Source: an uncultured Armatimonadota bacterium
Lineage (GTDB): Bacteria > Armatimonadota > Armatimonadia > Armatimonadales > Armatimonadaceae
DNA: 34,146 bases
Direction of reading: 5' to 3'
Assembly (NCBI GenBank): GCA_903910385.1
Contig: CAIVZM010000057.1
Span: 1-34,146 of the forward strand
Every line of letters begins with the position of its first letter. Position 1 is the first letter of the stretch. The position numbers were made by a program, and so were the translations under genes. The notes below the pieces were generated by a model, which was not told where the DNA came from, ran no database searches, and saw only the letters and a list, made by a program, of their open reading frames with translations. This document shows, piece by piece, positions 14,778 through 20,298 of this stretch.

Positions 14778-15860
14778 ATGCAATCAGGCAGTTCCCTATC
14801 ATCGGGCGTGCGCAGAAATATGATCACGCTATGCCGCATTACGGTAGCGGTGACATTTGTCCTGCTTGCCCTTGCCTTTCTAAATGAGAGAGGGAAACTC
14901 CGACGAACGACGCTGACATCAACGGCGCGACCTTCGTATGATTTGCAGATTGCCACCCTCCCGGGTTTTCCCTTCAGTAGCGTCACTGCGTTGAACAATC
15001 AGGGAACGGCGGTCGGTATAGCCTGGACCGAGGAAATGGACGAGATTCATTCGTTCATCTGGCGGGACGGTAAAGCGGTCGAATTGAAGCGCCCGAGCGG
15101 CATACGCCATTGTATTGCCGTCGATATCAATGACCGGGGCGATGTTGTCGGGGCGGGAATGAAGGACAGTGGTCCTGTCGTCGGAATTATCTGGGGCGCG
15201 GATCGAAAAACAACGATTATTGCGCTTAAAAATCAGATGGTCTTTCCGCAGAGCATCAATAACGCCGGAACGGTTTCAGGCCTTTATCAGACCACAGAAA
15301 GCGACAGCGCCCTCAAGGGGTTTCTCTGGACTGCAGGTAAACTGCGTGAGATCGGCGCGTTTCAGCCCCTTTCTCTCAATGATGCGGACGATATGGCAGG
15401 CGTTCGATTTACCGGCGCGGGCGAGAAATCACGCATCGAACCGGTCCTTTATCAAAAAGATAAAAGGTTGACAATCCTTCCCCGACCTCGCGGATTCGAT
15501 CATGGCCTGGCATACGATATCAACAGTCGCAGCGATTGTGTCGGCGGCGTTTTCGGGCAAGAAACGACTATTCAAGCGGTACTCTGGGAAAGCGGCAAAG
15601 CGCGGTTTCTCTCCTCCCGTCCCTCACTCGCCTACGGCGTAAACGATGCCGGACAGGCGGTCGGTCTCGCCGTGCGCGATTTTTATTACGAAGCAGCCCT
15701 TTGGGATGGTAAGCAGGAAATTTTTCTCAATGACACTGTTTCTCGCCGCGCCGGATGGAATCTTTTTGCCGCAATTCGTGTGAACCAACGCGGACAAATC
15801 GTCGGTTTGGCGACTAAAGGCGATTTATCGCAGGGTTTTCTCCTGACTCCACGAAAATAG
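14778..15860 (+). CDS. Membrane-anchored or secreted HAF-type repeat protein
   Basis: 360 aa. A hydrophobic segment at about residues 14-34 (MITLCRITVAVTFVLLALAF) is a signal anchor or signal peptide. The rest is built of about seven repeats, each with a core like ALNNQGTAVG, DINDRGDVVG, INNAGTVSG, LNDADDMAG, DINSRSDCVG, VNDAGQAVG and VNQRGQIVG. They start near residues 70, 115, 160, 202, 246, 287 and 335. This is the pattern of the HAF extracellular repeat, and a period of 42-48 residues repeated seven times suggests a beta-propeller. The function is unknown. ATG 14778 has AAGGTGA a few nt upstream; ATG 14820 is possible. Confidence 0.75.
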   Translation: MQSGSSLSSGVRRNMITLCRITVAVTFVLLALAFLNERGKLRRTTLTSTARPSYDLQIATLPGFPFSSVTALNNQGTAVGIAWTEEMDEIHSFIWRDGKAVELKRPSGIRHCIAVDINDRGDVVGAGMKDSGPVVGIIWGADRKTTIIALKNQMVFPQSINNAGTVSGLYQTTESDSALKGFLWTAGKLREIGAFQPLSLNDADDMAGVRFTGAGEKSRIEPVLYQKDKRLTILPRPRGFDHGLAYDINSRSDCVGGVFGQETTIQAVLWESGKARFLSSRPSLAYGVNDAGQAVGLAVRDFYYEAALWDGKQEIFLNDTVSRRAGWNLFAAIRVNQRGQIVGLATKGDLSQGFLLTPRK

Positions 15861-15954
15861 GCAGAAAACAAGCCATATCAAAGCGCGAAAAATAGGGAAG
15901 TTTCGGGTATAACGGCGTATCACTCCGCGAGTTCAGCGCGTACAGGAGCCTTCG

Positions 15955-18900
15955 TTGCCCAATTTACGATTCCGTGCCTTCCTGATAGTCGTACTTTCCT
16001 GTCTTCTTTCCACCGGCGCCCGTGCGCAAAACGCCCCTGATATCTACGCCATTACGAACGCGCGTATTATGATAGGCGGCGGAAAAACCATTGAGAAGGG
16101 GACGATTGTCCTCCGTGATGGACTTGTCGCCGCTGTGGGTGAGAAAGTCGCGCCGCCCGCCGATGCGCGTATTCTCGATGGCGCCGGAGTCACGGTGTAT
16201 CCGGGAATGGTGGATGGATACACAAAGATCGGGATGCCCGCTGGGAGCGAATACCCGAAAGAGGCGCGAGGCGATTCGTACAACGTCCTGAAAGTGCGAT
16301 CGGATGTAGCGGCGACGACGCTGTACAAGCCCGACAACGCCGCAACCGAAGCGCGGCGAAAACTGGGTTTTGGCGCAATGTTGGTCTCTCCGGGCGTTGG
16401 ACTATTTACCGGAACCTCCGCCGTTTTCTCTACGGGCGAAGGTGATGCCTCGGGAATGACGCTACGCCCCGCTGTGGCATCACACATTGACTGGACAGCG
16501 GAAGACCCGACGGGCGACTACCCGGAATCGCTGATGGGCGAAATCGCCGCTATCCGGCAGGCGCTGTATGACGCTCAGATCGCCGATGCGCGACTCACGG
16601 CGTACGAGCGTGATCCGAAGGGAAAATCACGTCCCGTCGTCTCCCGGCAGGTTCTCGCTTTGCGCCCGGTGGTTCAGGGAAAACTGCCCCTGGCGTTCCA
16701 TGCCGATTCCGCCGCCGATATGCGTCGCGTTCTGGCATTGTGCCGAGAATTCAAAATTGCGCCGATCATCGAAGGTGGGCGTGAAGGCTACCGGATCGCG
16801 GACGAGCTCAAAGCGGCGAAGGCGACCGTACTTCTGTCCGTGGCGTTGCCGGAACCGCCGAAGGTAAAGAAGGGCGACGAAGACCCCACGACGCTTCAAG
16901 GCTTCCGCTACCGCGCTTCCCTGCCGCGAACCGCCGCAATTCTGGCGAAGGCGGGTGTGAACTTCGCCTTTACCACTATCGGATTGAGCGCCGTCAATGA
17001 CTACCCGAAGAATATCCGCAAGTTTATCGCGGCGGGTCTCCCGGAAGAGGCGGCGGTGACTGCGGCGACAATAGCTCCCGCAAAAATCCTGGGCATTGAT
17101 CGCCAGTTGGGAACGCTGGAAATTGGCAAGATCGCCAATCTGGTCGCCGTTTCCGATGGGACACTCTTCGCGCCAAAGTCGAAGGTGAAATATGTTTTCG
17201 TAGACGGCAAGCAAGTCCAAATCGACATCCCGAAGGTGACGACGCCCACAGGAAGCGCAGCAGTGAAACTGGCGGATATTCCGTTGCCTCCCGGCGTCAC
17301 AAAGGAGATGGCCCTCGAAACGCTCAAGAAGCAACCGGAAGTCGCCCGCCCCTTCCTCCCAGCAGGCGTGACCATAGAACAGGCGATCGCCGCCCTGGAG
17401 GGAAAAACGCCGGAAGAGAAACCGGCGGAAACCAAAAAAGAAGAGGATGCGCCCAAAGCCCCACCGGTCGTTGGCGAGGGCTTGATTCCGCCCCTGCCTC
17501 CGGCGGTAGCGTCCTCCTTCATACTGCGTGGCGCGACCGTGTGGACTGCCGGGCCGCAGGGAACTCTGCCCAATGCCGATATCTTTGTCCGTGACGGCAA
17601 AATTGTCGCTATCGGCGCCGGGTTGAAAGTTCCTGCCGGAACAGCCGAAATCAACGCGAAGGGGAAACATATCTCCCCCGGAATGATCGACTGCCACTCC
17701 CACACCGCTATCGATGGCGGCGTGAACGAGGGTAGTAACATCATCACGGCGGAATGCCGCATTCAAGATGTCATCGATGCGGATGATGTAAATATCTATC
17801 GTCAACTGGCAGGCGGCACGACGGCGGCGAACATTTTACATGGCTCCGCGAATGCGATTGGCGGTCAAAACGCCGTTCTGAAATGGCGCTGGGGGAAATC
17901 GCCGGAGGAGCTGTTTTTGAAGGGAGCCCCGGCGGGAATCAAGTTCGCGCTGGGCGAAAACCCCAAGCAGAGCAATTTCTCGTTCCCCGGACAGGTTCCC
18001 CGTTACCCGGCGACACGTATGGGCGTCGAAAAAGTGATTCGGGAAGGGTTCCTCAAAGCGAAGGACTACCAGCGCCAGTGGGCGGAGCATCGCGCCGGAA
18101 AGCGGGACGCCCCTGCCCGTGATCTGCAATCCGAAGCCCTGGTCGAGATCATGGAAGGCAAGCGCTACGTCCATTCCCACTGCTATCGTCAGGACGAAAT
18201 CCTGATGCTGATGCGTCTGGCGGAGGACTTCGGCTTCCGTATCCGCACATTCCAGCACGTTCTGGAAGGCTACAAAGTCGCGGACGAAATGGCGAAGCAT
18301 GGCGTGGGCGGTTCGACATTCTCTGACTGGTGGGGCTTCAAAATCGAAGCCTATGACGCTATTCCCTACAACGGCGCGTTGATGACCGAACGTGGCGTCA
18401 ATGTGTCCTTCAATTCCGACTCCTCCGAACTGGCGCGACGACTGAACCTCGAAGCGGCGAAGGCGATCAAGTACGGCGGCATCGCGCCCGAAGAAGCGAT
18501 CAAGTTCGACACGATCAACCCGGCGAAGCAACTGGGCATCGATAAAATGACCGGTTCGCTGGAAGTCGGGAAAGACGCCGATATCGTCGTGTGGAGCGGT
18601 TCGCCGCTTTCTTCCCTCTCGATCTGCGAAAAAACCTTCGTCGACGGAACCCTGTACTTCGACCGCGCCGCCGACCTTGCCGCCCGCCCGGCGCTGGAAG
18701 AGGAAAAGAAGCGTCTTGCCGCCGCAGAAAAGCCAGAGGAGAAAAAGCCCGAAGACAAAAAGCCTTCCCCAACCACGCTTAAACCAGCGGGAAGCGGTCT
18801 TACCCTCGTGGGGCAAACATCCCTGAAGCCGGAAACGCCGTCTGCGAACGTAACGCCATCGTTCCCGCGAGCGTCGGTTCCTCTGGCAGCGCTACGCACC

Positions 18901-20298
18901 GGCGATAAGGCGATCCGTGCTATTGTCGGTGGGACGGTGCATACTGTCAGCGGGGCGATTATTCCCAATGGCGTCATTGTCATGGCAAACGGGAAGATTG
19001 CTGCGGTCGGCGCGGCGGATACTGTGAAGATTCCAGAAACCGCGGAGAAAATCAATGCCGCCGGGCTTCATGTTTATCCCGGCATGTTCGATGCCGATAC
19101 CACACTGGGCATCAGTGAGATCGATTCGATCCGCGCCACCAACGACATCCGGGAAATCGGGGAGTTCAACCCGGAATTGAAGTCCGTCATTGCGGTCAAT
19201 CCGGATTCGGAACGGATTGGCGTGGCGCGGCAGGGCGGCATTTTGAACGTTGTCACCGCCCCGGCAGGCGGCGTTCTCAGCGGCATGGGCGGCGTTATCT
19301 GCCTCGATGGCTGGACATGGGAAGACATGGCGCTTTCGCCGACTTCCGGTCTTTACCTGAACTTTCCAACCATGGGTCAGCGGCGTTTCCGCGAGACGGC
19401 GCATCGCTGTGAGGAAACCTCCGGTTCGCCCGACGACGAACTCGATACCGATCCTAACTTCCGCTCCGGTGCGTTCGTCCCGGCTGGTTCGCGTGATTCG
19501 CAGGCTCTGCGCTTTGGGCTGCTTCCCAATACGGCGTTCGGAGCGCAACAGGGCGCCCGCCGTCGCGCCGTCGTGAGCGCCGGCGATGAAGATGAAGAAA
19601 AAGCGGCTCTTAAACCGCTCAATAATTTCTTCGACACAGCAAAACGCTACCGCGATTCTCGCAAGGCGGAAGGCAAGGACGGCGTCCCCACACATGACCG
19701 CGATCCGAAACTGGAAGCGATGTTGTCCGTACTGGACGGAACCGTCCCGGTGTTCGTTCGCGCTGACCGTGAGAAAGATATTCGCTCGGCGGTCAACTGG
19801 GCGAAAGGTGAGGGAATCCGTATCGTGATCGTCGGCGGACAGGAAGCGGATAAAGTCGCAGACTTCCTCGCGCAGGAAAAAATTCCGGTAATTCTGGGGC
19901 CTGTCTTGAACCTCCCCCGCTCGGATGACGCGGCTTATGACGACGCCTACGCTATCCCGGCGAAGTTGGCGAAAGCGGGCGTCCCGTTCTGCCTCTCGAC
20001 AGGGGACGCCACCAATGTCCGCCGTCTGCCAAACCATGCCGCTATGGCGTCAGCGTTCGGTCTGTCCCCCGAAGAAGCGTTGAAGGCGATCACGCTTTAC
20101 CCCGCCCAGATTACAGGGGTAGGCGACCGTCTCGGTAGCATCGATGCCGGGAAACAGGCCGACATCCTTCTGACGAACGGCGATATATTGGAAGTGTCGA
20201 CGGAAATCAAAGGGGCATATGTTGCCGGAGTCCCGGTCAGTCTGACTAACAAGCAGACGCGCCTGAATGATAAATACAAAGCCAGACCGAAAAAGTAG
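15955..20298 (+). CDS. Giant exported protein with three amidohydrolase modules
   Basis: 1447 aa, secreted (signal peptide 1-25 ending ARAQ). Three amidohydrolase-type modules lie at about residues 28-440, 522-920 and 989-1435, joined by Lys/Glu/Pro-rich linkers near 484-505 and 922-940. Only the middle module keeps metal-site residues: H581-S-H583 after PGMID, K663 in AGIKFALGENP, H740/H742, H768 and D822. It most resembles imidazolonepropionase-like amidohydrolases. In module 1 the HxH position reads Y89-T-K91, and in module 3 D1048-T-T1050, so both are predicted inactive. The start TTG 15955 is supported by CAGGAG 7 nt upstream and the signal peptide. A TATAAC box is at 15908-15913. The substrate is unknown; cyclic amide or peptide hydrolysis is the family norm. 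Confidence 0.88.
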   Translation: MPNLRFRAFLIVVLSCLLSTGARAQNAPDIYAITNARIMIGGGKTIEKGTIVLRDGLVAAVGEKVAPPADARILDGAGVTVYPGMVDGYTKIGMPAGSEYPKEARGDSYNVLKVRSDVAATTLYKPDNAATEARRKLGFGAMLVSPGVGLFTGTSAVFSTGEGDASGMTLRPAVASHIDWTAEDPTGDYPESLMGEIAAIRQALYDAQIADARLTAYERDPKGKSRPVVSRQVLALRPVVQGKLPLAFHADSAADMRRVLALCREFKIAPIIEGGREGYRIADELKAAKATVLLSVALPEPPKVKKGDEDPTTLQGFRYRASLPRTAAILAKAGVNFAFTTIGLSAVNDYPKNIRKFIAAGLPEEAAVTAATIAPAKILGIDRQLGTLEIGKIANLVAVSDGTLFAPKSKVKYVFVDGKQVQIDIPKVTTPTGSAAVKLADIPLPPGVTKEMALETLKKQPEVARPFLPAGVTIEQAIAALEGKTPEEKPAETKKEEDAPKAPPVVGEGLIPPLPPAVASSFILRGATVWTAGPQGTLPNADIFVRDGKIVAIGAGLKVPAGTAEINAKGKHISPGMIDCHSHTAIDGGVNEGSNIITAECRIQDVIDADDVNIYRQLAGGTTAANILHGSANAIGGQNAVLKWRWGKSPEELFLKGAPAGIKFALGENPKQSNFSFPGQVPRYPATRMGVEKVIREGFLKAKDYQRQWAEHRAGKRDAPARDLQSEALVEIMEGKRYVHSHCYRQDEILMLMRLAEDFGFRIRTFQHVLEGYKVADEMAKHGVGGSTFSDWWGFKIEAYDAIPYNGALMTERGVNVSFNSDSSELARRLNLEAAKAIKYGGIAPEEAIKFDTINPAKQLGIDKMTGSLEVGKDADIVVWSGSPLSSLSICEKTFVDGTLYFDRAADLAARPALEEEKKRLAAAEKPEEKKPEDKKPSPTTLKPAGSGLTLVGQTSLKPETPSANVTPSFPRASVPLAALRTGDKAIRAIVGGTVHTVSGAIIPNGVIVMANGKIAAVGAADTVKIPETAEKINAAGLHVYPGMFDADTTLGISEIDSIRATNDIREIGEFNPELKSVIAVNPDSERIGVARQGGILNVVTAPAGGVLSGMGGVICLDGWTWEDMALSPTSGLYLNFPTMGQRRFRETAHRCEETSGSPDDELDTDPNFRSGAFVPAGSRDSQALRFGLLPNTAFGAQQGARRRAVVSAGDEDEEKAALKPLNNFFDTAKRYRDSRKAEGKDGVPTHDRDPKLEAMLSVLDGTVPVFVRADREKDIRSAVNWAKGEGIRIVIVGGQEADKVADFLAQEKIPVILGPVLNLPRSDDAAYDDAYAIPAKLAKAGVPFCLSTGDATNVRRLPNHAAMASAFGLSPEEALKAITLYPAQITGVGDRLGSIDAGKQADILLTNGDILEVSTEIKGAYVAGVPVSLTNKQTRLNDKYKARPKK

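Follow-up and report, generated by a model that had tools for sequence, protein, structure and literature searches.

The three-module gene of the window (the whole stretch of DNA analysed, 34,146 nucleotides of a contig from an uncultured Armatimonadota bacterium) probably encodes the fused form of an exported metalloamidohydrolase complex, composed of a catalytic module 2 and of two dedicated pseudoenzyme subunits, modules 1 and 3. Module 2 would be the sole catalytic subunit and would cleave an amide-like bond by means of H581, H583, K663 (probably carbamylated), H742, H768 and D822. Modules 1 and 3 would each have lost activity once, in an ancient ancestor; they would pack against module 2, be needed for assembly and stability, and probably shape or gate its active site. 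The subunits would be supplied by two or three genes in most bacteria and would be joined, in the window, via flexible charged linkers.

The search against Pfam assigned three stretches of the 1447-aa protein to Amidohydro_1 (PF01979; E 1.6e-42), which makes it a member of the amidohydrolase superfamily. The exported ORF proposed by the first-pass annotation was confirmed by its TTG start, the AGGAG preceding it, these three stretches and a Sec-type signal peptide recognised by inspection (LPNLRFRAFLIVVLSCLLSTGARA followed by QNA). The linkers, described there as rich in Lys and Glu, contain 23-24% K+E at residues 430-515 and 905-975 vs 12.5% in the whole chain. The protein encoded just upstream, at positions 14778-15860 of the window, matches the HAF repeat (TIGR02913).

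Table 1. Features of the three-module gene and its product (positions in the window; m1, m2 and m3 are the module types 1, 2 and 3 across relatives)
Feature	Position	Strand	Basis
Three-module amidohydrolase gene, 1447 aa	15955..20298	+	ORF listing and Pfam
AGGAG, likely ribosome-binding site of the TTG start	15944..15948	+	Sequence; six bases upstream
Signal peptide, residues 1-24	15955..16026	+	By inspection
Module 1, residues 25-429, putative pseudo-amidohydrolase	16027..17241	+	PDB 3ooq E 1e-16; m1+m2 model; clade m1
Y89-T90-K91 at the HxH position of module 1	16219..16227	+	Sequence, alignment
Linker 1, residues 430-515, Lys/Glu/Pro-rich	17242..17499	+	Composition; partly low pLDDT
Module 2, residues 516-904, putative catalytic amidohydrolase	17500..18666	+	PDB 3ooq E 8e-56, Z 47-49; metal-site conservation
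H581-S-H583, predicted beta-1 metal ligands	17695..17703	+	93/93 m2
K663, probable carbamylated Lys, beta-4	17941..17943	+	92/93 m2; predicted strand
H742, predicted beta-5 ligand	18178..18180	+	93/93 m2
H768, predicted beta-6 ligand	18256..18258	+	93/93 m2
D822, predicted beta-8 ligand and general base	18418..18420	+	93/93 m2
Helix and Lys/Glu-rich linker 2, residues 905-975	18667..18879	+	Composition; disordered in model
Module 3, residues 976-1447, putative pseudo-amidohydrolase	18880..20295	+	PDB 3ooq E 1e-34; m2+m3 model; clade m3
D1048-T1049-T1050 at the HxH position of module 3	19096..19104	+	Sequence, alignment

We then aligned 256 modules (93 m2, 84 m1 and 79 m3) and compared their residues at the metal site. 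The results showed that the ligand set of active binuclear-type amidohydrolases (HxH, Lys, His, His, Asp) is present in module 2 and absent from modules 1 and 3. HxH, the beta-5 His, the beta-6 His and the Asp were found in all 93 m2 sequences, and the Lys in 92 of them. HxH is gone from m1 and m3, and the ligand positions hold varied residues in nearly all of the 84 m1 and 79 m3 sequences; the beta-6 His is replaced by Gly in 72/84 m1 and 73/79 m3, and was counted as His in none. A complete metal site occurs in no m1 or m3 examined. The first reading of the window protein was therefore right in confining HxH to the middle module (YTK, HSH and DTT in modules 1, 2 and 3, respectively), and in placing the downstream Lys, His and Asp residues there (K663, H742, H768 and D822). 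The same combination of one intact and two degenerate sites was observed in the triple fusions L135, L136, L139 and L140, from another family of the window's phylum, and in that of genome G068 (L137). Since this pattern recurs in 93 module-2, 84 module-1 and 79 module-3 sequences, it exceeds chance. We infer from the conserved ligands that module 2 is the only catalytic module, with a binuclear-type site, and that it acts by hydrolysis. Its K663 lies in the motif GIKFALGEN, at the position which we take to be that of the carbamylated Lys in other amidohydrolases, and is probably carbamylated itself. Glu668 of the GEN motif (92/93) was considered as a bridging ligand and was rejected because the two-gene relatives described below have a Thr there and yet keep the Lys, and because this Lys occupies the carbamylated-Lys site of the family.

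Alternative metal ligands were also sought in the two degenerate modules. Neither a His nor a Cys is conserved to 80% among the 84 m1 or the 79 m3 sequences, and hence nothing points to an alternative His/Cys metal site in modules 1 and 3. The residues that are conserved are of another kind: module 3 keeps the acidic set E1055 (0.99), D1064 (0.99) and E1067 (0.97), located in the loop that follows HxH in module 2, and module 1 keeps Q202 and D206 (both 1.00). These residues could mean that modules 1 and 3 act in ligand binding or regulation rather than as structural partners, their pseudo-active-site mouths binding a substrate, a product or a cation and thereby controlling module 2. We regard this as possible but rather unlikely, since the same residues could equally serve a subunit interface and no conserved His or Cys accompanies them. 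The earlier suggestion of pseudoenzyme modules beside an active one thus stands, and they are ancient and conserved; of the roles then listed for them (scaffold, substrate capture or regulation) none is singled out, the evidence being compatible with assembly, gating and ligand binding.

The structures of the two-module segments m1+m2 and m2+m3 were predicted with AF2. Both models showed a barrel fold with a beta domain formed by the N- and C-terminal parts. Comparison of the module 2 model with PDB 3ooq, a Thermotoga maritima amidohydrolase that the records consulted leave uncharacterised, gave a Z-score of 47-49 at about 2 A rmsd, while the models of modules 1 and 3 matched amidohydrolases at Z about 23-24. 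The 3ooq protein is related to module 2 over its full length (E 8e-56, 32% identity) and shares with it the motifs HSH, GSAN-GGQ, GLK..GENP, HAH, IEHG and D; among solved sequences it is also the one closest to modules 1 and 3. It differs in being a single 396-aa module with no partner in the chain. The packing of the modules was read from the pTM alone, which was 0.85 for m1+m2 and 0.86 for m2+m3, the latter from an alignment with only nine rows containing both modules. Because by our own reasoning near-equal domains that are not placed relative to each other should give about half, these values correspond to a confident predicted packing of module 1 on module 2 and of module 2 on module 3.

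Several searches were made for clues to the substrate. The window protein reached no NCBIfam equivalog cut-off (best score 142 bits vs a cut-off of 500); those missed include Xaa-Pro dipeptidase, HutI, NagA, PhnM, hydantoinase and dihydroorotase, and the relatives of the trio likewise remained below the NCBIfam cut-offs. No conserved neighbour gene was found at the trio loci, where the largest cluster among 397 neighbour ORFs was present in 4 loci, and gene context therefore gives the substrate no anchor. We commit ourselves to an amide bond as the one that module 2 would hydrolyse; our guess as to the substrate is a carboxylate-bearing compound, either peptide-like or N-acyl.

Two-gene relatives, in which an m2-like gene that has all the ligands adjoins a degenerate m3-like gene as in the trio, were observed in the window's own genome (contig C75; L047:9680-12375), in two relatives from its phylum (L144 and L145) and on two Sphingomonadales plasmids, from Qipengyuania citrea and Novosphingobium resinovorum (pSA1) (L142:4812-7606 and L143:4629-7528). 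Unlike the trio they have no module 1, and their substrate may differ; in the 90-row tree described below, the own-genome pair falls outside the m2 and m3 clades. The Q. citrea pair is located directly after a peptide MFS transporter and the own-genome pair adjoins a prolyl oligopeptidase, which are weak hints of a peptide and come from two-gene relatives only. A specific role of the complex as dipeptidase or isopeptidase of the cell envelope would agree with these neighbours, and with the presence of prolidase-like and isoaspartyl dipeptidase structures among the fold neighbours after 3ooq. We nevertheless doubt it, since after 3ooq many amidohydrolase families tie as fold neighbours of module 2 (Z 24-26), deaminases and triazine hydrolases included, with isoaspartyl dipeptidase at Z about 24; the unmet equivalog cut-offs and the lack of conserved neighbours of the trio also weigh against it.

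We then determined the distribution of the three modules. A scan of GTDB contigs with the module 2 alignment gave at least 583 relatives, and module profiles made in this analysis were run over the best 80 of these loci, which are not an unbiased census because they are the top-scoring ones. Among these 80, the arrangement m1m2 + m3 was found at 38 loci, three separate genes at 15, m1 + m2m3 at 5, m2m3 + m1 at 2 (L091 and L102), a single triple ORF at 1 (Thermoanaerobaculales, 1394 aa) and m1m2 without an adjacent m3 at 8, the others being cut by contig ends or odd. The order read at L091 and L102 shows that the gene order of the trio is not fixed. The trio occurs, within the best 80 of at least 583 loci, in at least 12 phyla: Planctomycetota, Acidobacteriota, Fidelibacterota, Bacteroidota, Pseudomonadota, Verrucomicrobiota, Armatimonadota, Ignavibacteriota, Eiseniibacteriota, Actinomycetota, Krumholzibacteriota and Zixiibacteriota. 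Where m3 was not adjacent to m1m2, it was found elsewhere in the genome in 8/8 cases (E 1e-121 to 1e-173), for some of which the m1m2 contig ends early. In the m1m2 proteins of Planctomycetota and other relatives, the segment between the two modules is longer, in some by about 100 residues, and contains a D..G.W motif that recurs among them; the segment has no Pfam name (L084:4072-7380, for example), and the window protein has only a short linker there.

Within the window's phylum, 45 of 201 genomes contain m2 at E<1e-100. All 45 gave an m1-profile match (E<=1e-35; counted as profile matches) and 43 an m3 match (E<=1e-60), the loci of the two others (G008 and G010) running into contig ends. 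Genomes of the same family encode the same triple protein, whose complete or almost complete copies have 1265-1481 aa, with module identities to the window protein from about 28% (module 1, most distant genus) to 72% (module 2, nearest). In two genomes from other families of the phylum (G024 and G030), module 1 is a separate ORF that overlaps a fused m2m3 ORF. The architecture, which the first-pass annotation had allowed might prove common and already characterised, is not rare as a single-chain fusion, but no description of it was found in the open-access literature searched. On a Hymenobacter volaticus plasmid (L141:3472-7478), the region of m1 and m2 is split over several frames, while the m3 gene occupies a single frame.

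A hydrophobic N-terminus was found in 68/80 m1, 19/24 m2 and 55/63 m3 free-standing ORFs of the 80-locus set, by hydropathy only (a signal-peptide-like mean of >=1.9 in the stretch before the module), which suggests that the free-standing genes of relatives mostly carry export signals. We favour modules 1 and 3 as obligate partner subunits because the trio occurs in nearly every state of fusion and fission, its members are present even when unlinked, they have their own putative signal peptides and their packing is confidently predicted.

In a quick 90-row tree made without bootstrap, with three long-branch rows and without PDB 3ooq and the Sphingomonadales plasmid pairs, each of m1, m2 and m3 is set apart by a single branch (SH-aLRT 99, 100 and 100, respectively). 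The tree shows them as three separate and apparently ancient clades that travel together. Counting of fusion-state changes on the m2 tree gave minima of 6 for m1-m2 and 4 for m2-m3, so the trio was repeatedly fused or split and yet kept whole. Pairwise dN/dS, with dS saturated in some pairs, was 0.05-0.11 for m1, 0.07-0.20 for m3 and 0.04-0.10 for m2; purifying selection acts strongly on the dead modules 1 and 3. Their divergence is nevertheless faster than that of module 2, at about 40% or less identity to relatives vs roughly 50-70%.

Such modules might themselves be catalytic, through an unusual metal site or without a metal, and they do keep the fold, the 3ooq match spanning both of them; we consider this very improbable, as the canonical ligand positions vary freely and neither has a His or Cys at 80%. 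That they are left over from a tandem duplication and decaying, retained only through fusion to an active enzyme, would account for their faster divergence but can practically be dismissed, being already contradicted by their retention as separate genes in many species, unlinked in some, by dN/dS far below 1 and by each forming one clade across phyla.

Dead members of the superfamily kept as partners, as the pseudoenzyme subunits proposed here would be, have a precedent in the inactive dihydroorotases associated with aspartate transcarbamoylase in Pseudomonas putida and in the fungal CAD-like pseudo-DHOase; the P. putida protein is required for holoenzyme assembly, according to the title of a reference cited in PMC4581275. 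The likeness of the trio to these assembly partners is drawn from co-occurrence and predicted packing. The active partner there has another fold and acts in pyrimidine synthesis, whereas the trio combines dead and live paralogues, two of them dead and all putatively exported. Nothing relevant to the trio was found in the open-access literature searched on amidohydrolase pseudoenzymes, tandem amidohydrolases and 3OOQ/TM0814. Since the annotation, where present, reads 'amidohydrolase family protein', two of the three subunits carry the label of an enzyme that they probably cannot be.

A bolder version, which we hold to be plausible though still tentative, is that this widespread exported metallohydrolase works only as one live and two dead paralogous subunits, that the dead ones build part of the substrate chamber, and that the trio predates, or has spread among, the at least 12 phyla. 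If the proposed complex is real, a common exported enzyme complex has been overlooked so far and would be well suited to the question of why copies without catalytic activity are retained in evolution; because the trio exists as three, two or one gene, its assembly, its allostery and the consequences of fusion would be directly comparable. Assays of isolated module 2, the usual approach, might then show inactivity for the wrong reason. Runs of 3-6 amidohydrolase modules with complete and degenerate metal sites mixed, sometimes with two modules per chain, were also observed (L129, L130, L131, L132 and L134), and these clusters are possibly a second, larger kind of live/dead assembly.
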